A DNA stretch of 64,000 nt from Pseudoselenomonas ruminantium (GTDB lineage Bacteria > Bacillota > Negativicutes > Selenomonadales > Selenomonadaceae), in NCBI RefSeq assembly GCF_900104055.1, contig NZ_FNJQ01000018.1, forward strand, positions 1-64,000. The letters are read 5' to 3'. Shown in pieces: positions 131 through 22,566 of this stretch (the stretch's first letter is position 1; every line of letters starts with the position of its first letter). Made by a program: the position numbers and the translations under genes. The notes below the pieces were generated by a model, which did no database searches, was not told the DNA's origin, and saw only the letters and a program-made list of their open reading frames with translations.

Positions 131-336
131 TTTGGGTGGAGGCGGGGATGCTTATTCGCCGACGGAACGACTGCCTGAACGAAGTGAAGGCTGGCCCGCA
201 AACAGACGTTGCTAAAAATTGAGATGAACATACGCGCCGCCGGCCTGCCCGGCGCAGGTCGCTAGAAACTGCGTACTTCTGCTGGCGGGTCATTTAGTGG
301 AGCGGCGAAGAAGTATCCCCGCCTCCGCCCCACAAA
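131..336 (+). ncRNA. Long-stem structured element, copy A
   Basis: Non-coding. A left arm beginning TTTGGGTGGAGGCGGGGATG at 131 pairs with a right arm ending near 336 (core CCCCGCCTCCGCC). The arms enclose about 140 nt that contain a GC hairpin (GCGCCG...CGGCGC), a GGCCCGC/GCGGGTC stem and the motif GTCATTTAG at 289-297. The same architecture recurs at 14856-15035, 15148-15354, 22013-22184 and 22304-22481. A hairpin followed by T-rich DNA lies just downstream on the plus strand, which favours plus-strand transcription. Positions 1-35 match the right arm of the 14856-15035 element, so the window opens inside a second, divergent element. I do not recognise a described family. A mobile element is the alternative. 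Confidence 0.5.
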
Positions 337-14788: not shown

Positions 14789-14855
14789 CAGTAGATTGCA
14801 GTTTATCGGTTAGTTCGTGCTAAAGATATCCCGCCCATGCGTAGTCAGGGGTTCA

Positions 14856-15035
14856 CGGGGGAGTACTTTTTCTGGCTGCGCTAAACGACCCGCTCGGCAA
14901 GGTCAACATTCCTTAGTCTGAATGCGCCGGGCAGGCCAACGGCGCGTCTTTCAACGTGCTTCCCAGTAACTTTCTGCAACGGGCCGGTCTTCGCTATGCT
15001 CAGACTGTCGCTCCACCAGAAAAAGCACTCCCCCG
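14856..15035 (-). ncRNA. Long-stem structured element, copy B (minus orientation)
   Basis: The 20-bp arms CGGGGGAGTACTTTTTCTGG (14856-14875) and CCAGAAAAAGCACTCCCCCG (15016-15035) pair with one wobble-type difference. Read on the minus strand the interior has a GGCCCG / CGGGTC stem, the hairpin GCGCCGTTGGCCTGCCCGGCGC, and GTCGTTTAG (14881-14889) just before the closing arm. This matches copies A and C in order and spacing. It lies head-to-head with copy C, 112 nt away. Confidence 0.55.
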
Positions 15036-15147
15036 TTCGCCCCAAGGCACGGATTGGACAATTGGCACGAACCGTCTCTCTCGTAACAAGCACATCGATG
15101 TACTTGCGGCTTACAGCTGAGACTTAGCCGTTTGACACAGATATACC
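15036..15147. other. Linker between divergent elements B and C
   Basis: A 112-nt spacer without a gene. It contains the near-palindrome CAAGCACATCGATGTACTTG, also found at about 72-91 in the first copy (CAAGAACATCGATGTAATTG). A shared promoter or protein site between the divergent elements is possible. Confidence 0.4.
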
Positions 15148-15354
15148 TTTGGGCGGAGGCGGGGATGCTTATTCGCCGACGGAACGACTGCCTGAACGAA
15201 GTGAAGGCTGGCCCGCAAACAGACGTTACTGGAAACTGAGCTGAACATACGCGCCGCCGGCCTGCCCGGCGCAGGTAACTAAAATAGTACGCACTACTGC
15301 TGGCGGGTCATTTAGTGAAGTGACGAAGAAGTATCCCCACCTCCGCCCCACAAA
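15148..15354 (+). ncRNA. Long-stem structured element, copy C
   Basis: A near copy of element A: left arm beginning TTTGGGCGGAGGCGGGGATG at 15148, right arm ending CACCTCCGCCCCACAAA at 15354. The interior holds the GCGCCG...CGGCGC hairpin, the GGCCCGC / GCGGGTC stem and GTCATTTAG at 15307-15315. Differences from copy A fall mostly in loops or keep pairing through wobble. A small stem (AATTGC...GCAATT) and a terminator-like hairpin follow. Confidence 0.55.
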
Positions 15355-15406
15355 TCTGTAACCAATTGCGTTCAAGCACGCAACTACAAACTGCAATTTA
15401 TAGCGA

Positions 15407-15437
15407 AAGCCCGCTGACACTTTTGTCAGCGGGCTTT
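15407..15437. terminator. Terminator hairpin after element C and the fdh operon
   Basis: AAAGCCCGCTGAC pairs with GTCAGCGGGCTTT. It stands 3' of element C on the plus strand and 3' of the formate dehydrogenase operon (ending at 15463) on the minus strand, so it can serve both. The T-tract is short on each side. Confidence 0.6.
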
Positions 15438-15462
15438 CCGTCGTTTGATGTTTTTTAGCTTG

Positions 15463-16152
15463 TCAATCCTTCAACGCTTCATTGAGTTCTTTTTGCTTGA
15501 TTTTCCCTTCCCTCACCATATCGTCAATCCACTCGCCATGGTGGGCGTTGGCGTAGGCTGCTTTGATGGTGCCGTCCTGCATGCCGTGGACGGAGTCGGG
15601 GTTGGCTACGAGGGCCAGGTAGATATGGCCGATGGAGCCGGCAAAGCCGATGCCGGCGCAGAGGCTGTGCAGGGGAATCATCCAGGCGCGGAGGCTGTTA
15701 TCAATGATGCCTTCACCGAACCAGAGCAGGGCGCCGGAGCCGACGAGCACGGCCCAGGTGGCCAGCTGCAGGGCGATGTTCATGCGTTCGCCACCGTTGT
15801 AGAAGCCCTGTTTCGGGATGCCTTCGGGATGTTTGCCGATGAGTTCCAGCGGGAATTTGACGAGGAAAGTGATGTCCTTGCCGTTGAATTTGAATACTTC
15901 GGAGAACATGCGCCAAATGCCTTCGCGGGCCGTAATCAGACCGACAACGGGGTTCAGCACGAAGATGACCGCAAAGAAGCGGTGGGCGTTCTGCAGGGTT
16001 TTCGCGCCAAACATATCGTAGAGGAATTTAAACGTGTCGGCATAGAGGGGCAAAGCCGTCAAAAACAGCATGAAGAAGCAGACGGCATTGATCCAATGCA
16101 GGTACACGAATCCTTTGGCGTGGCGCTGGACGTATTTCTTGTTGACGATCAT
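15463..16152 (-). CDS. fdnI: Formate dehydrogenase cytochrome b (gamma) subunit
   Basis: A 229-aa di-heme integral-membrane subunit that passes electrons from the Fe-S subunit to the quinone pool. It has four main hydrophobic segments with likely heme ligands in YLHWINAVCFFMLFLTALPL, NAHRFFAVIFVLNPVVGL, MIPLHSLCAGIGFAGSIGHI. Length and His placement fit FdnI/FdoI. Its start (16152) abuts the stop of the Fe-S gene, and it ends the operon before a hairpin terminator. Confidence 0.92.
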   Translation of the reverse strand: MIVNKKYVQRHAKGFVYLHWINAVCFFMLFLTALPLYADTFKFLYDMFGAKTLQNAHRFFAVIFVLNPVVGLITAREGIWRMFSEVFKFNGKDITFLVKFPLELIGKHPEGIPKQGFYNGGERMNIALQLATWAVLVGSGALLWFGEGIIDNSLRAWMIPLHSLCAGIGFAGSIGHIYLALVANPDSVHGMQDGTIKAAYANAHHGEWIDDMVREGKIKQKELNEALKD

Positions 16153-16153
16153 C

Positions 16154-16933
16154 TTACTTGTCCCCCTTTCTGCGCATGGCCGTAAGGGCGGTCAGGCCTA
16201 ACACGCCAGCGATGGCACCGACGCTGGCCAGCTTGCCCACGGGGCGCACGACATCCTTCCAGAGATTGATGGAATCCGGCGTCCGGGGATTTTCCGGCAG
16301 GCCGTAGACCGCCGGCTTTTCCGGCAGGACATAGAGCATATGTACGCCGCCCACGCCCTGCGGGTTGTAGATATTCGCATCGGGATGGGTATCCTTGATC
16401 ATCGTGAGGCGTTCCTCCGCCTTTTTGAGCATTTCCTCCCGCGTGCCAAAGAGGATGGCATCGGCGGTGCAGGTCTTGGCACACGAGGGCTGCATGCCCT
16501 GTTCGATGCGGTCAAAGCAGAGGTCGCATTTGGTGGATTTGTTCCGCTCCGCATCGACCTTGGGAATGCCAAACGGGCAATTGGTCGTGCAATAGCCGCA
16601 GCCCACGCATTTATCCTCATCGATGACCACAGCGCCCGAAGGCTTTTTTTCGATGGCCTCTTCGGGGCAGCCGTTCAGGCAGGCCGGATCGCCACAGTGC
16701 ATGCATTGTTTCTTGAAGAAATCCCAATGGAATTTGCCCTTGCTGTCAATGCGCTCCTGCATCTGAATCAGGTTCAGGGTATGGGAGGTCAGGTCCTTGT
16801 GGGACTGATACTGTCCCTCAAAGGGCGTGGACATATCGGCGGGCAGGTCATGCCACTGTTTGCAGGCCACCATGCAGGCGCGGCAGGCACTGCAGCGCAC
16901 CACATCATGGAGCATCGTTATTTCTTGAGCCAT
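16154..16933 (-). CDS. fdnH: Formate dehydrogenase iron-sulfur (beta) subunit
   Basis: A 259-aa subunit with four [4Fe-4S] binding motifs in order: CSACRACMVACKQWHD, CMHCGDPACLNGCPEEAI, CVGCGYCTTNCPFGIP, and CDLCFDRIEQGMQPSCAKTC. It wires the catalytic subunit to the cytochrome. A hydrophobic C-terminal helix (VGAIAGVLGLTAL, about 238-252) would anchor it in the membrane as in FdnH. It follows fdhE by 18 bp. Confidence 0.95.
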   Translation of the reverse strand: MAQEITMLHDVVRCSACRACMVACKQWHDLPADMSTPFEGQYQSHKDLTSHTLNLIQMQERIDSKGKFHWDFFKKQCMHCGDPACLNGCPEEAIEKKPSGAVVIDEDKCVGCGYCTTNCPFGIPKVDAERNKSTKCDLCFDRIEQGMQPSCAKTCTADAILFGTREEMLKKAEERLTMIKDTHPDANIYNPQGVGGVHMLYVLPEKPAVYGLPENPRTPDSINLWKDVVRPVGKLASVGAIAGVLGLTALTAMRRKGDK

Positions 16934-16951
16934 ATTTGCTCTCCTCTCGTC

Positions 16952-17782
16952 TTAACTATTCTCCAGCAAAATGCTGCCTTTTTTCGTGAAGCCCGCTTCT
17001 TCCCCCAGCATATCGAGGTGCAGAGTGGCCCAGTCCGTAAGGTAGACATCCTCCTGCCCTTCCTCGTTGTAGGTCTTGATGTAGCTCTTGCAGGCATCGC
17101 AGACATCGATGCGCATGGCCGGCAGGCCTTCGGGCTCCAAGATATGCATCTGCGTGAGGTCCTCGTTGCCGCAGTAAGCGCAGCCAACCCGGGCAAAGGG
17201 CCATTCCGTATGGCAGCCATCGCAGGTCAGGAATCTTGCCCGGCCTTCCTTTTCCTTGCGCAGGTGAGCCAGCACGGGATGCCGCCCGCAGATGGGACAG
17301 CTGTTCTTCCGCCAGCTCGCTGCCTGCCAGAATTCATGCTCTTTCAGCTTGGCAGGAACCAAAGCTTCCAGAATCTGCCAGCCTAAAATTCCCAGCAAAG
17401 CAGGGTTAAGCTCCGGCAAATTACCGCCGCCCTGCAGCAGCTGGACGAAAAAGGCTTCCCGGGTATCTTTATCCGCCTTATGCCCCCATGTCCGGAAGGC
17501 AGCTACGGCCTCCACGAGCCGGGAAGGATATTCGATATCCCCCAGTGTCTCCAGCACGATCGGCAGGGCCAGTGCGGCCGCCTCGACCGCAGGCTGCTGC
17601 CACTTTTTCTGCTGCAGCAGCGGAGTTTGCATCGTTTTGGCCTCAGCTATGGTAAGCTCCCAATCCAGCGGTTTTACCACTTCTTTCACCCGCGCGGCCA
17701 CGGTCATATGCAGCAGAGCCGTTTCTGCCAGGAAGGGGTGTTTTTCCAGATGGGCATGTATGTTCTTTTCCATTGAAGTCAT
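16952..17782 (-). CDS. fdhE: Formate dehydrogenase accessory protein FdhE
   Basis: A 276-aa cytoplasmic protein needed for assembly of Tat-exported formate dehydrogenases; it binds iron through CxxC motifs. Four Cys pairs are seen: NSCPICGRHPVLAHL, LTCDGCHTEWPF, VGCAYCGNEDL and DVCDACKSYIKTY. The N-terminal half is helical. The ATG at 17782 has GAGGTGA upstream; a longer frame runs into the fdnG end. Placing fdhE between the catalytic and Fe-S subunit genes is unusual relative to E. coli, where it is last. Confidence 0.94.
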   Translation of the reverse strand: MTSMEKNIHAHLEKHPFLAETALLHMTVAARVKEVVKPLDWELTIAEAKTMQTPLLQQKKWQQPAVEAAALALPIVLETLGDIEYPSRLVEAVAAFRTWGHKADKDTREAFFVQLLQGGGNLPELNPALLGILGWQILEALVPAKLKEHEFWQAASWRKNSCPICGRHPVLAHLRKEKEGRARFLTCDGCHTEWPFARVGCAYCGNEDLTQMHILEPEGLPAMRIDVCDACKSYIKTYNEEGQEDVYLTDWATLHLDMLGEEAGFTKKGSILLENS

Positions 17783-17792
17783 AATAGTCACC

Positions 17793-20700
17793 TCAGGCCT
17801 TCGTGATATTGACGAGGCAGGCCTTGAATTCCTGTTCCTGCACATTGGGATCGAGGGCGTCGATGGTCAGGTAGTTCGTGGACGGGCCTTTAGACAGGCC
17901 CTTGAAGCCCCAGCTGTAGGGCATCCAGACCATATGCGTCTCCTCGCCGTTGATGGTCAAAGGCTGGGCACGGTCGGTAACCATGGCCTTGACCGTGACC
18001 TCACTGCGGGCCGAGCTGACCTTGACCTTATCGCCGAGCTTGACACCCAATTTATCTGCTAACTTGTGGCTCATTTCCACAAAAGGCTCTTTGACCAGCT
18101 CGTTGAGCCACGGAATATTGCGCGTGACCGTGCCGGAGCACCAATGCTCGGCAATGCCGGAACTGCAAAGCACGTAGGGGAACTCGTCCTTCGTGCCGAT
18201 GCGCTGTTTTTCCGGCAGGCGCGGATAGACCACGCAGGGGTTGAACTGCGCACGCTCGTCCGTATGCAGGGCGTTCTTGGTGGGGCTTTCCACCGGCTCG
18301 TAGAATTCCGGCAGCGGGCCGTCCACAGGCGTATAGGAATGGTCGCGCGTCATGCCGTCCGGATTGAGGTCGCTGTATTCGGCGGCAAACAGGCGGCCAT
18401 AGCCTTCGCCCGTCATGCGGAAGGGCTTATTGCCGTCCGGCGTGCCCGGAGCCGCTGCGCGGTTGCCCACGTCGGGCACATCGTAGCCTTCCCAGCGCCC
18501 CTTGGCCTGATCCCACCAGACGATCTTATGCTCGGGATCTACCGGCTGACCGTTCTCATCGCAGGAAGCGCGGTTGTAGAGCAGGTGGATATTGTCCGGC
18601 CAGGTCCAGCCAAAATTCGGATAGATGCCCAGGCCGCCTTCGTCCTCCTGTCCGCGGCGCTGGGCCTTGTGTTCGCCATCGCCATAGACACCGGCATAGA
18701 TCCACATGCCGGAGCTTGTCGTGCCGTCGTCTTTCAACTGCCCGATACCGGTCACCAGCTTGCCCGTGGTCAGGTCGTAACCGTTGATTTCCTTGAGGAT
18801 ATCCTCCACAGTCTGGTCGTCGGAATAATTCCAGGTCATGCGCTTGATGATTTCGTCTTTGGCCTCCGTGGAATCTTTATAAAGCTCACGAATCCTGCGC
18901 CACAGGAGATTATTGATTTCATAGTCCGGCTTGGAATCCCCCAAGGGCTTCGGCCCTTCCATGCGCCACTGGATCATGCGCATGGAGTTGGTGATCGTAC
19001 CGCGGCGCTCCAGATAGGAGCAGGCCGGCAGGAAGATGACCTCGGTCTGGATTTCCTTTGGATTATCACCGGGACGGTTCCAGAATTCCGCGGTTTCATT
19101 GACGAAGATATCCTGCACAATCACCGTATCCATCTTGCAGAGACCGTCATGCACCATGCCGGCGTTGGCGTTGGTCACATGAGGATTCTGGCCGCAGAGA
19201 TAGAGGCACTTGACCTTGCCGCGGTAAGCATCCTCGAACAGGCCATAGATGGAATCGTTATGGCTGCTGTTGCGCACGCCGATCAGGTTGAAGCCAAAGT
19301 CATTCTCCGGCGTTGCATAATCGCCAAACCACGCCTTGAGCATATTCTTGAGCCATTTGGCGCGGAACGTGCCCGAAGCCTTCGTCCATTTGGCCAATGT
19401 ATTGGTCTTTTCCGTCGGGAAGGAGAGATAGCCCGGGAAATACTGGAACATGATGCCAAAGTCCGTGGAAGCCTGCACATTGGGCTGGCCGCGCATGGCG
19501 TCGATGCCGCCCCCCGGCACGCCGATATTGCCGCGCAGGAGCTGCAGGATCGTGAAGCAGCGGATATTTTCCACGCCCACGGTATGCTGTGTCATGCCCA
19601 AAGCGTACATCATAACCGTCGGCGAATACTCGCAGAAAATCTTGGCCGCCAGCTCGATATTTTCCTTGCTCATGCCCGTGATGCCCGAAACCTTGTCCAG
19701 CGTATAGCGGGAGAAATGCTCCTTCATGCGGCTCATTACGGTATTCGGTGCAAAGAGATCATTGGCTTTCTGCGGCTTGCCATCCGCGCCCAAGGCATAG
19801 CCCCAGGTTTCCATGTTGTACTTGTGTTTTTCGGCATCATAGCCGGAGAAGATGCCTTCCTCGAACTTGTAATCGTCACGCAGGATGCAGTAGGCATTGG
19901 TATTGCGGCGGATGTAATTTTCATCATACTTCTTGTGCTCGATGATATGGCTGATGATATAACCCAGGAATGCGATATCCGTACCAGGGCGCAGCTGGAA
20001 GAAGTAGTCGGCGATCTTGGAAGTTCTCGTATAGCGCACATCCACATGCACGATCTTGGCACCGTTGTTCTTGGCCTTCATGACATTCTTGAGCCCCATG
20101 GGATGACATTCCGCGATATTGGAACCTTCAATCCAGATGAGCTTGGAGTGCTTGAGATCGCCCCAATGGTTGGTCATGGCGCCACGCCCAAAGGCTGCAT
20201 TCATAGCCGGCGGCGTGGTGGCATGGCAGACGCGGGTCTGATTGTCGATATAGGTCACGCCCAGGGCACGGGCCATCTTGATATTCTGGTAGCATTCCTC
20301 GTTGTTGATCTGGGAACCGCCCACAAAGCCCAGGGCATCTGTGCGGTGCACGTCCACCGTCTCGCCACCAATCACTTCCGTCTGCTTCCAGTTCTCGTCA
20401 CGGGCTTTCTTCATCGCACGGGCCGCCTTATCGATGGCCTCATCCCAGCTGATTTCCTCCCAATGGTCACTGCCCGGCGCGCGGTACAAGGGCTTGGTCG
20501 CACGCTGGTCGGAATTCGGGATCTGGCCGTAGCCCAGACCTTTGGAGCAAAGCGCACCGCGATTCACAGGGTTGTCGCTGGCCCCTTCGAGATTGATCAG
20601 CCTACCATCCTTCACATAGCCAATCACCCCGCAGCCGCAGGCGCAGAAATGGCAGATGGAGGTAAACTCCCGGGCCCCCTTGAGCTTGAACTCTTTGGCC

Positions 20701-20801
20701 GCCGCTTTTACCTTCGGCATATCCAGCCCGAGACTGGCCAGCGCCATTCCCACACCGGTAAGCCCCGTGGCTTTCAAGAAGTCGCGTCTGCTTAAATCCA
20801 T
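17793..20801 (-). CDS. fdnG: Formate dehydrogenase catalytic (alpha) subunit, Cys type, Tat-exported
   Basis: A 1002-aa molybdenum/tungsten bis-MGD enzyme oxidising formate to CO2 on the periplasmic side. Tat signal MDLSRRDFLKATGLTGVGMA; N-terminal [4Fe-4S] motif CHFCACGCGVIGYV with the last ligand in GALCSKGLGYG. The active-site residue is Cys, in DNQTRVCHATTPPAMNAAFG, where E. coli FdnG uses selenocysteine (UGA). No in-frame UGA or Sec element is needed. The molybdopterin domains are complete and the length is typical. Start at 20801 (GGAGGAAG upstream). First gene of the fdnG-fdhE-fdnH-fdnI operon. Confidence 0.96.
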   Translation of the reverse strand: MDLSRRDFLKATGLTGVGMALASLGLDMPKVKAAAKEFKLKGAREFTSICHFCACGCGVIGYVKDGRLINLEGASDNPVNRGALCSKGLGYGQIPNSDQRATKPLYRAPGSDHWEEISWDEAIDKAARAMKKARDENWKQTEVIGGETVDVHRTDALGFVGGSQINNEECYQNIKMARALGVTYIDNQTRVCHATTPPAMNAAFGRGAMTNHWGDLKHSKLIWIEGSNIAECHPMGLKNVMKAKNNGAKIVHVDVRYTRTSKIADYFFQLRPGTDIAFLGYIISHIIEHKKYDENYIRRNTNAYCILRDDYKFEEGIFSGYDAEKHKYNMETWGYALGADGKPQKANDLFAPNTVMSRMKEHFSRYTLDKVSGITGMSKENIELAAKIFCEYSPTVMMYALGMTQHTVGVENIRCFTILQLLRGNIGVPGGGIDAMRGQPNVQASTDFGIMFQYFPGYLSFPTEKTNTLAKWTKASGTFRAKWLKNMLKAWFGDYATPENDFGFNLIGVRNSSHNDSIYGLFEDAYRGKVKCLYLCGQNPHVTNANAGMVHDGLCKMDTVIVQDIFVNETAEFWNRPGDNPKEIQTEVIFLPACSYLERRGTITNSMRMIQWRMEGPKPLGDSKPDYEINNLLWRRIRELYKDSTEAKDEIIKRMTWNYSDDQTVEDILKEINGYDLTTGKLVTGIGQLKDDGTTSSGMWIYAGVYGDGEHKAQRRGQEDEGGLGIYPNFGWTWPDNIHLLYNRASCDENGQPVDPEHKIVWWDQAKGRWEGYDVPDVGNRAAAPGTPDGNKPFRMTGEGYGRLFAAEYSDLNPDGMTRDHSYTPVDGPLPEFYEPVESPTKNALHTDERAQFNPCVVYPRLPEKQRIGTKDEFPYVLCSSGIAEHWCSGTVTRNIPWLNELVKEPFVEMSHKLADKLGVKLGDKVKVSSARSEVTVKAMVTDRAQPLTINGEETHMVWMPYSWGFKGLSKGPSTNYLTIDALDPNVQEQEFKACLVNITKA

Positions 20802-20817
20802 CAAAACTTCCTCCTTC

Positions 20818-20835
20818 ATAAAACACAGTGTTTAT
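20818..20835. promoter_or_regulatory. Palindrome over the fdnG leader
   Basis: ATAAAACACAGTGTTTAT is a near-perfect inverted repeat (ATAAACAC arms with one extra A) about 17 bp upstream of the fdnG start. Its ATAAAC...GTTTAT halves recur in the palindrome at 21911-21925 upstream of fdhD. Possible shared operator. Confidence 0.35.
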
Positions 20836-20957
20836 CGCAAAATCATATGACCTTTATAGGTTTTACCATTTGCCTTATAAATTATTATCAACTAACCACA
20901 TAAAGATTATTTATGATTTTATGTAAAAAAAGTATCGGGAATCCATAATTTTTTTCT

Positions 20958-21740
20958 CTAACATACCCGTTCTGGGTGAGTGTAAACCGAAAATCCATCC
21001 CGCGTCAGCCGTGCCATCAGGGTGATCCCCAGCTTGTCAGCCAGCTCCAGCGAGAGCGTGGTGGGCACGGACTTGGCCAGCACCATCCTGCAGCCCATGC
21101 GCCAGAGCTTCAGCATCATCTCCGTGGAACAGCGGCCGCTGAAGACAATCATCTTCGAGGCCATATCCACCTCATGGCGGATAGCCCAGCCGTAGAGCTT
21201 GTCAAAGACGTTATGACGTCCGATGTCTTCCCGGAACACGAGGATCCTGTCCGCGGCCGGATCATAGAGCACGCCGCTATGCACGCCGTTGGTGCGCTCA
21301 TGGGTGGCGGCCAGCTCGCCCAAGAGCTTATTGGCAACCTGCAGCGCCCTGCCTGCCTCCACGCAGGTCTTATCCGCCCGCAGCACCGCCCCCGGCCAGG
21401 CTTGCAGGTGCGACAGGCTGTAGTAACGCGGCTCCACCTGACGATGTGCCGCCCGCGCCTGTGCCAGTGCCGTAGTCTCCAGCCGGGCCGTGCCATGGAA
21501 GATGCCCCAGCGGGCAATATCGGCTCGCCTCTGCAAAAGACCGCGCTGTGCCAGCATACCCACGGCCAGGTCCAGCCGGTCACCCGGAGAACAAAGCGCC
21601 TCCGCCACTGGCACACCATTGAGTTCCACTTTCAGGACCTGCTCAATGGAGGTAGCCTTCGTATCCTCCACCCAGCAGGCCTTCCCCGCCACAAAACGGC
21701 GCACGGCCATGATCTCATATTCCTCCCGGCGTGGCTCCAT
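20958..21740 (-). CDS. fdhD: Formate dehydrogenase sulfurtransferase-like protein FdhD, without CxxC loop
   Basis: A 260-aa FdhD-family protein. Canonical FdhD moves sulfur from a desulfurase to the Mo-bis-MGD cofactor. Family motifs FREDIGRHNVFDKLYGWAI and FSGRCSTEMMLKLW are intact. The central CGxCG loop that carries the two sulfur-relay cysteines in E. coli FdhD is missing; the matching region reads RYYSLSHLQAWPGAVLRADK. The partner enzyme uses Cys at the active site. ATG at 21740 gives GGAGGG a normal spacing; ATG at 21746 is possible. It is upstream of, and not closely coupled to, the fdnG operon (156-bp gap). Confidence 0.9.
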   Translation of the reverse strand: MEPRREEYEIMAVRRFVAGKACWVEDTKATSIEQVLKVELNGVPVAEALCSPGDRLDLAVGMLAQRGLLQRRADIARWGIFHGTARLETTALAQARAAHRQVEPRYYSLSHLQAWPGAVLRADKTCVEAGRALQVANKLLGELAATHERTNGVHSGVLYDPAADRILVFREDIGRHNVFDKLYGWAIRHEVDMASKMIVFSGRCSTEMMLKLWRMGCRMVLAKSVPTTLSLELADKLGITLMARLTRDGFSVYTHPERVC

Positions 21741-21910
21741 CTCCATCCCTCCGTTACGCTATTCGCAAGATTATGTCTATTGTAGTAGTTTTTCTTATTT
21801 ATATCGATGATTTATATCACAGAGACAAAACAATAAACCATCGATATGCACATAGTAACAAAGAAAAAAGCCCCTGACAAGTCCCCCAAAAATGGCCTAC
21901 CAAGAGCATT

Positions 21911-21925
21911 ATAAACATTGTTTAT
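21911..21925. promoter_or_regulatory. Palindrome upstream of fdhD
   Basis: ATAAACATTGTTTAT is a perfect 6-3-6 inverted repeat in an AT-rich stretch about 170 bp before fdhD. It shares half-sites with the palindrome before fdnG. Confidence 0.35.
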
Positions 21926-21974
21926 ACTTATTTTTAATGTTAATTATGAGGTTTCTCACAGTTTATTGCCAGGG

Positions 21975-22229
21975 GGCTGGTACATATTTTGCGGGCTTGT
22001 AGAGTATGTACTGCAGACGGGGAGATATTTTGTAGACTTCGCTAAATGTCTGGCATGAAAAATACACTCCTCGTTGTTACACGCGCCGGTTACCACGGCG
22101 CATTGACATCGTGGCATATTGTTTATACTCTTTGCCAGCCAGCGGAGCAGTCGCTCCGTTCTACAAAATATCCCCCCCGTCTGCAAGCGGCTTTCAGCAG
22201 CCATTCCGCCCGCAAAATATGCACCAGCC
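21975..22229 (-). ncRNA. Nested long-stem structured element, copy D (minus orientation)
   Basis: Two nested stems: outer GGCTGGTACATATTTTGCGG.. (21975-21996) with 22208-22229, one mismatch; inner GCAGACGGGGAGATATTTTG.. (22013-22036) with 22160-22184. Read on the minus strand, the interior has a GGAGCGACTGCTCC hairpin, CTGGCA / TGCCAG stem, hairpin GCGCCG...CGGCGC, and GACATTTAG (complement at 22042-22050) just before the closing arm. The layout equals copies A-C but the CTGGCA stem replaces GGCCCGC with paired changes. Confidence 0.5.
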
Positions 22230-22303
22230 ACCCAAAATACTACCAGCCTGACAACCACGATATGTGCCCCCACTCTGTAAGTCAGGTTGCAACGATTGTT
22301 CCT

Positions 22304-22481
22304 TGGGCGCAGGTGCTTGCTTTTTGTCCAGAGTGCGCTGCCGCAGGCTGGCTCCTGACAGAAAAAATCTGGACAGCTCGCTGAAAGCCGCGACGTGGTG
22401 ACCGGAGCATGCCGCTAAGTCAACGGCATTTCCGAGGGAGTCATTTAGCACGGCGGACAAAAAGCAAGTACCCGCGTCCCA
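22304..22481 (+). ncRNA. Long-stem structured element, copy E
   Basis: The left arm TGGGCGCAGGTGCTTGCTTT.. (22304-22329) pairs with 22455-22481. The interior shows GGCTGGCTCC / GGGAGTC pairing, a hairpin ATGCCG...CGGCAT in the place of GCGCCG...CGGCGC, and GTCATTTAG at 22440-22448. It lies head-to-head with copy D, separated by about 118 nt from D's inner stem. A second perfect partner for the left arm occurs at 22545-22566. Confidence 0.5.
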
Positions 22482-22544
22482 CCTCATTTCGTGCGGAAGT
22501 CAAAAAATAAGCCCCGGCGCCACAACACCGCATTCACGGCAGGG

Positions 22545-22566
22545 AAAAAGCAAGCACCTGCGCCCC
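22545..22566. repeat. Alternative right arm for element E
   Basis: AAAAAGCAAGCACCTGCGCC is perfectly complementary to the left arm of element E over 19 bases, better than the arm at 22455-22481. It permits two mutually exclusive foldings. Confidence 0.5.

Follow-up and report, generated by a model that had tools for sequence, protein, structure and literature searches.

Do the five structured elements in the first 64,000 nucleotides of Pseudoselenomonas ruminantium contig NZ_FNJQ01000018.1 (the window) belong to a family of non-coding RNAs, as an earlier note on this DNA had proposed, or is their fold maintained for another reason? The analysis described here suggests that each of them is probably, if far from certainly, a copy of a non-coding DNA hairpin repeat dispersed through genomes of the Selenomonas family. 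This repeat resembles REPINs (repetitive extragenic palindromic (REP) doublets forming hairpins) and miniature inverted-repeat transposable elements (MITEs), is invertible in place and would be kept as a structured single-strand substrate.

The five elements were confirmed at the coordinates and on the strands given before. The motif G[AT]C[AG]TTTAG also lies where it had been placed, with five occurrences in the window, one per element.

131-336, plus strand: B-type structured element of unit 1 (folding; covariance-model match at 153-311, plus strand; motif start 289)
14856-15035, minus strand: A-type structured element of unit 2 (fold; covariance-model match; motif start 14889)
15148-15354, plus strand: B-type structured element of unit 2 (covariance-model match; motif start 15307)
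22013-22184, minus strand: C-type structured element of pair 3 (fold; covariance-model match; motif start 22050)
22304-22481, plus strand: D-type structured element of pair 3 (fold; covariance-model match; motif start 22440)

Folding of four of the five elements against 200 shuffles revealed z scores of -5.81 (120-340), -5.51 (14845-15048), -4.45 (22300-22485) and -7.50 (22005-22190), and in each case none of the 200 shuffles equalled the real fold. All five were matched by a covariance model built from 26 cores, a training set which contained three of them and left out those at 131 and 14856. The comparison with Rfam that had been suggested was performed. At the gathering score the whole window yielded tRNA only, and no match of the relaxed searches overlapped any element. 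A known RNA family was therefore rejected. Elsewhere in the window a weak match to SECIS_3 (20173-20231, minus strand; 26.7 bits, gathering score 63) was located inside the open reading frame (ORF) of a molybdopterin oxidoreductase, and an fdhD-like gene adjoins this ORF.

Each element is a branched hairpin of 140-200 nt with a long closing stem, helices P2 and P3 and a hairpin P4. P2 often contains a tandem G.A pair, and P3 ends at GTCRTTTAG. The sequence of the closing stem differs among subfamilies. Mismatches included, in 183 of 207 distinct copies these stems span 21-36 bp, with an overall range of 4-48 bp. The paired changes postulated for the inner helices were recovered in P3 (TGGCCCGC/GCGGGTCA and variants). 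The comparison of GCGCCG/CGGCGC with ATGCCG/CGGCAT had to be withdrawn, since it set P4 against a non-homologous local hairpin of the copy at 22304 that is missing in some copies of the same type (L032, L035; L numbers denote loci and G numbers genomes).

In the alignment of the 26 cores (P1 inner closing pairs, P2, P3, P4) standard pairs amounted to 93.4% and both-side changes to 57, compared with 84.7% and 14.6 in shuffles. The alignment of 147 distinct copies to the model, which leans towards the structure and holds copies related to one another, gave 96.0% standard pairs and 332 both-side changes versus 88.3% and 104.6, and none of 500 shuffles was as high in either value. The further pair types in this alignment numbered 22, no excess over shuffles (21.8). 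Slid-pairing controls dropped to 39-48% paired. Within GTCRTTTAG the R takes part in pairing, its partner being the T/C before GGCC (U-A in 86 rows, C-G in 60 rows). The covariation of the inner helices is real. The common structural plan and the covariation on which the family had been founded were thus retained. That selection must act on RNA was not supported. Covarying stems in bacterial repeats are, taken alone, no proof of a functional RNA.

The earlier note had missed that the elements form divergent pairs inside a DNA repeat which is bounded by inverted repeats and found in both orientations. Such pairs were observed not only in the window but in many further copies. Two of the window's three pairs lie in a repeat of ~605 bp, here called the unit, in which two head-to-head elements surround a 20-bp palindrome and 15-bp terminal inverted repeats (TAAATTGCAGTTTGT) form the ends. 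The element at 131 is part of a unit which the start of the contig truncates, base 1 of the window being base 1 of contig C68.

1-380, no strand: unit 1, incomplete (the contig start truncates the minus A half and leaves the plus B half whole; starting at contig base 2, 361 bp match unit 2 at 85%)
367-380, no strand: right terminal inverted repeat of unit 1 (ACAAACTGCAATT; sequence, consensus)
14792-15400, no strand: unit 2, complete, ~609 bp, two structured elements, divergently arranged and enclosed by terminal inverted repeats (alignment boundaries)
14792-14806, no strand: left terminal inverted repeat of unit 2 (TAGATTGCAGTTTAT; sequence, consensus)
15087-15106, no strand: central palindrome of unit 2 (CAAGCACATCGATGTACTTG; sequence)
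15386-15400, no strand: right terminal inverted repeat of unit 2 (ACAAACTGCAATTTA; sequence, consensus)
15402-15440, no strand: terminator-type hairpin directly adjoining unit 2 (AAAGCCCGCTGAC...GTCAGCGGGCTTT; sequence)

The ends of the unit are sharp: 6 aligned copies and 30 rows, in which two loci are counted twice, agree from TAAATTGCAGTTTGT to its inverse and not past it. The fetched loci provided 78 distinct full units from 15 genomes. Positions 0-11 of the terminal repeat are at least 81% identical among 63 of 78 A-ends and 76 of 78 B-ends, the consensus having taken in ends which score at least 10 of 14 against the terminal-repeat motif. The spacer centre is the palindrome CAAG.ACATCGATGT.CTTG, and ATCGAT stands in the middle of 75 of the 78 units. 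Folded as a single DNA strand, unit 2 gave a z score of -6.93 (20 shuffles).

Terminators are frequent next to the unit. A terminator-like hairpin reading towards the unit was found at most 25 bp away from 45 of 150 unit ends, compared with 7, 3, 2 and 6 of 150 further out, and 41 of 72 units possess at least one such hairpin. Scanning the same 75 bp in the opposite direction under a looser position rule gave 42, as expected of two-way terminators. Group IIC introns target terminators; such an intron was rejected for unit 2 because no Rfam intron match and no ORF of at least 100 aa were found in it.

The unit sits at orthologous sites of different species in either orientation. Both 400-bp flanks matched in 22 cross-genome pairs, and the unit was inverted in 9 of them. 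When the window's own unit is discounted (left flank match of 29 bp, near flanks unaligned) it is inverted in 8 of 21 pairs. These pairs are not independent; counted by site, inversion was observed in 6 of 14 site groups, between different species. In five groups (L100/L155, L068/L071, L070/L114, L054/L317, L178/L190) a base-by-base reading of both junctions led to the same place, and in the L183/L304 inversion group the left junction is less clean. L071 from G010, a single contig, is opposite to L068 and L163 from two drafts which agree with each other. In L070/L114 a variant of the outer terminal repeat (CTGCAAGTTA) keeps its side with the flank although the unit has flipped, which indicates a crossover inside the terminal repeat. 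The same flank-linked variant is carried by G005.

One further site was picked via its neighbouring gene, present in 17 of 22 genomes, and not via the element. At this site the unit points one way in G000 and G016 and the other way in G008 and G005. G006 contains both flanks and no unit, and in the other 12 genomes neither a unit beside the gene nor the far flank was found.

Exchange between sites was observed as well. One unit, 99.2% identical between the two genomes concerned, occupies site X of G000 (L108) and site Y of G013 (L155). Neither site is empty in either genome, and the identity of the exchanged unit ends at the terminal repeats. Units of the same site are mutual best matches in only 3 of 26 pairs, 5 of the 26 resting on one flank and one being the discounted window pair. 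Both flanks were found on one locus at 216 places, a count which includes self matches and mostly loci gathered because they bear an element; the gap was unit-sized at 197, of another size at 19 and empty at 0.

We conclude that the structured strand is maintained, and inversion makes DNA the more economical reading than RNA. A trans-acting, host-encoded recombinase would bring the two terminal repeats together, a joining which the folded hairpins, and perhaps also a protein on the central palindrome, may aid. The recombinase would then invert or swap the unit, and the feature it recognises is probably the motif strand in its folded form. The unit may also simply persist, as REPINs do. A more far-reaching proposal, possible yet doubtful at present, is that of genome-wide docking sites, many of them by terminators, which would accept swappable and invertible hairpin cassettes of ~580 bp through a recombinase reading folded DNA. 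Folded-DNA recombination substrates are known mainly from integron attC sites and REP-like hairpins. If the proposal is true, a covarying fold of 150 nt would be a recombination substrate much larger than these. The Selenomonas repeat bears on how scattered palindromic repeats, which are common, move without a REP-associated tyrosine transposase (RAYT) and what purpose they have. With many copies per genome, an unusually large fold that covaries and closely related strains in which one site holds the unit in opposite orientations, its mechanism is directly testable.

Several observations weigh against this DNA repeat model. No recombinase could be linked to the unit in a survey that covered serine recombinases. 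These occur in 21 of 22 genus genomes, and of 40 recombinase loci checked just one contains an element. A consistent target duplication was absent from 57 unit readings, many of which are the two strands of one unit; some showed 2-4 matching bases. There is one clear case of exchange. Furthermore, drafts dominate the genome set, and repeats of 600 bp can be misassembled, a concern which is offset by the reading of orientation at two junctions and by the single contig of G010. The sole 200-kb stretch compared, between two near relatives, contained 4 units in common, none new and one half-lost. Finally, pair 3 of the window has no such terminal repeats, and consequently the model covers units and not every element.

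Other leads were followed and did not hold. A conserved serine recombinase of 197 aa is not favoured as the driver because it is also present in G009 and G018, genomes without a detected element. A clean empty site was sought between G010 and G011, and the two differences encountered (388 kb in G010, 78 kb in G011) are both no clean insertions. The ortholog search for two window loci revealed a differing neighbourhood in the relatives read.

Nor was an autonomous transposon with the ends of the unit found at the loci read. The exact end motif occurs at 60 places in G010 and G017, the two genomes searched. The 11 of these loci that were fetched all hold an element, some in fused or half forms, and the 2.3-kb cases of G017 turned out to be units with a DDE insertion sequence (IS) in the spacer. 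Three units of G017 (L307 1871-4205, L308, L313) carry this IS, which we take to be IS1182 and which encodes a transposase of 491 aa (Pfam DDE domains). It has the same orientation in L307 and L308 and the opposite one in L313, and in L307 it is flanked by repeated CGTTCGCCCC. The IS copies of L307 and L308, and likewise those of L308 and L313, are 100% identical. Identity of the unit parts compared is 92-96%, apart from two stretches of 99% between L307 and L308. Apparently, judged by these identities, the IS targets the unit rather than moving it.

Among the alternatives to the DNA repeat model, a functional RNA family survives best, although we consider it unlikely. The RNA would be free-standing or form 3'-untranslated parts of neighbouring mRNAs, would have spread by riding on the repeat, and its fold would act as RNA. 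This agrees with the covariation of P2, P3 and P4, with the tandem G.A motifs, with the plan kept by diverged copies in other genera and with a fixed G.U pair in each of two helices, P3 and the closing stem. RNA selection on the motif strand should make G.U more tolerated than A.C. Over all positions of the closing stems G.U indeed prevails (196 versus 83 A.C per distinct arm), but 158 G.T pairs fall at conserved positions, and outside the conserved wobble positions the ratio is 82 to 107 (164 distinct stems). The G.U excess was thus rejected as proof of an RNA. Among the model's pairs G.U and A.C numbered 131 and 40 in A3, and 71 and 27 in A4. One single pair contributes 113 of the 131, leaving 18, which slightly lowered our estimate for the RNA and raised that for template switching, treated below, by even less. 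Beyond the fixed wobbles nothing points to a transcribed strand. Neither was a sigma-70-like promoter found around unit 2; moreover, a terminator pointing at the unit often directly precedes it, and the orientation of units to the neighbouring genes varies between strains. In view of the lack of a promoter-like site and of a strand bias outside the conserved G-T positions, a free-standing RNA was not demonstrated, and the earlier interpretation of the elements was upheld only in part.

Selection on structure might also be missing altogether, the repeats being inert debris whose inverted-repeat arms are homogenised, and whose spacer is inverted, by template switching of the polymerase. An excerpt of PMC8604942 reports that template switching homogenises the arms of inverted repeats without selection and, between short inverted repeats, can invert the spacer; hence, paired stems need not mean selection on RNA. 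Closing stems which vary between copies, stay paired and show no strand bias are in line with this explanation. However, one and the same G.T mismatch persists in 147 of 165 closing stems with the motif TG[CAT]TT (related copies), and mere homogenisation of the arms would erase it. In addition, covariation extends to inner helices with long loops, several genera share the core plan, and the inverted spacers in the excerpt of PMC8604942 comprise a few bases, compared with about 580 here. We therefore regard template switching as an improbable explanation.

That the hairpin doublets are spread by a Y1 (HUH) transposase in a REPIN/RAYT system can practically be dismissed: dispersed, extragenic inverted doublets accompanied by single hairpins follow the REPIN plan (excerpt of PMC3116915), but the elements are several times the length of a REP, and no Y1 match was obtained in six unit carriers or in G014, which carries diverged elements only. 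The Y1 transposase family PF01797 was found in 13 of 22 genus genomes, that of the window included, and not in the other 9. The genomes without a match include the unit carriers G010, G017, G011, G001, G002 and G005, the last being a draft of 86% completeness. Due to this pattern of presence and absence, a Y1/RAYT transposase is unlikely to be the driver.

The distribution of the family was investigated with model R1, the covariance model used for genome searches. In the window's genome R1 gave 64 matches, 52 of them full-length. The large searches scored only 7-15 candidates per genome with stricter filters, so that copy numbers are lower bounds and weak members were possibly missed. Within the genus, the Selenomonas ruminantium group, 18 of 22 genomes had at least one match, and G009, G018, G019 and G021 had none under these filters. 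In the family 26 of 189 genomes and 6 of 30 genera were positive, one genus on the basis of a partial match (G218). The class likewise yielded 26 of 380 genomes, all within this one family. By DNA similarity the unit was detected in 15 of 100 relatives, every one of this genus. Other genera possess one or two diverged copies each, except g11 with 10 and 14. These copies show the same plan with different stems; at the diverged loci read the neighbouring genes vary, and no gene belonging to the element was seen. In G031 (L128 1493-2128) a tandem array of about 3 elements with a period of 223 bp and a closing stem for each is located upstream of an ORF.

Viral contigs, searched with one exact pattern (P4), and phage records contained no match, and one plasmid record matches the family. 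This record (L391) is the 4.7-kb plasmid pSR1, NC_002139.1. Its radical SAM genes match chromosomal sequence adjoining a unit, and its HAMP gene meets the A hairpin of that unit halfway along, at a short common stretch (TTCAGCGTGCT). To judge from this arrangement, pSR1 looks like a circularised piece of chromosome, be it a real circle or a cloning artefact. Many contigs of G000 begin or end inside a unit, and the fragmentation of that assembly seems in large part due to the repeat. A search of the open literature on Selenomonas repeats or invertible segments revealed nothing relevant.

Pair 3 (22013-22481) belongs to a different subfamily; 18 places of the genome match this pair, its own place counted. 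Its arms are nested and repeated.

21973-22233, no strand: outer arms 21973-21999 with 22207-22233, an element apparently hosting the nested C element (from reading the sequence)
22543-22566, no strand: additional 3' arm that could pair with the 5' arm of the D element (a degenerate copy of the D 3' end; sequence reading)

The outer arm around the C element resembles the element of L042, and 3'-end repeats like that of the D element were found in L032 and G010. Reduced forms of the repeat were encountered as well. In a deletion derivative half of the unit was lost between short matches (G010 near 297.5 kb, L288, versus G011 97.5-98.1 kb, L298), and L311, L312 and L314 of G017 are short fused palindromes which the model matched on both strands.

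How does the repeat compare with known systems? The bcr1-bcr18 repeats of the Bacillus cereus group are also group-restricted and intergenic, some of them MITE-like and some with conserved secondary structure (excerpt of PMC3446304). They belong to a different host group, the excerpt does not mention divergent pairing, a central palindrome, inversion or exchange, and the likeness is one of description only. With MITEs the unit shares its short length, non-coding nature, terminal inverted repeats and many copies; unlike MITEs it lacks a consistent target duplication, and an autonomous relative was not among the 11 loci fetched from the 60 end-motif places of G010 and G017. Invertons are segments between inverted repeats that occur in both orientations, with a median of 11 per genome in the Negativicutes-like Firmicutes_C, and intergenic ones often flip a promoter (excerpt of PMC11892184). 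The Selenomonas unit was seen in both orientations between genomes only, and no promoter-like site was found around unit 2. In contrast to invertons, one family is present in many copies per genome, and a unit changed its site. REP sequences and REPINs are likewise dispersed extragenic hairpins, single or in inverted doublets, and the REPIN doublet behaves as a unit (excerpt of PMC3116915). REPs measure 20-40 bp (excerpt of PMC3733652), whereas the Selenomonas elements are branched hairpins of 140-200 nt. Unlike REPINs, the Selenomonas unit has 15-bp terminal repeats and adopts both orientations at one site, and, unlike RAYT-associated REPINs, it resides in six carrier genomes in which no Y1 transposase was found. 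On the whole the element is comparable to an oversized REPIN with the inversion of an inverton, although it fails the RAYT test.

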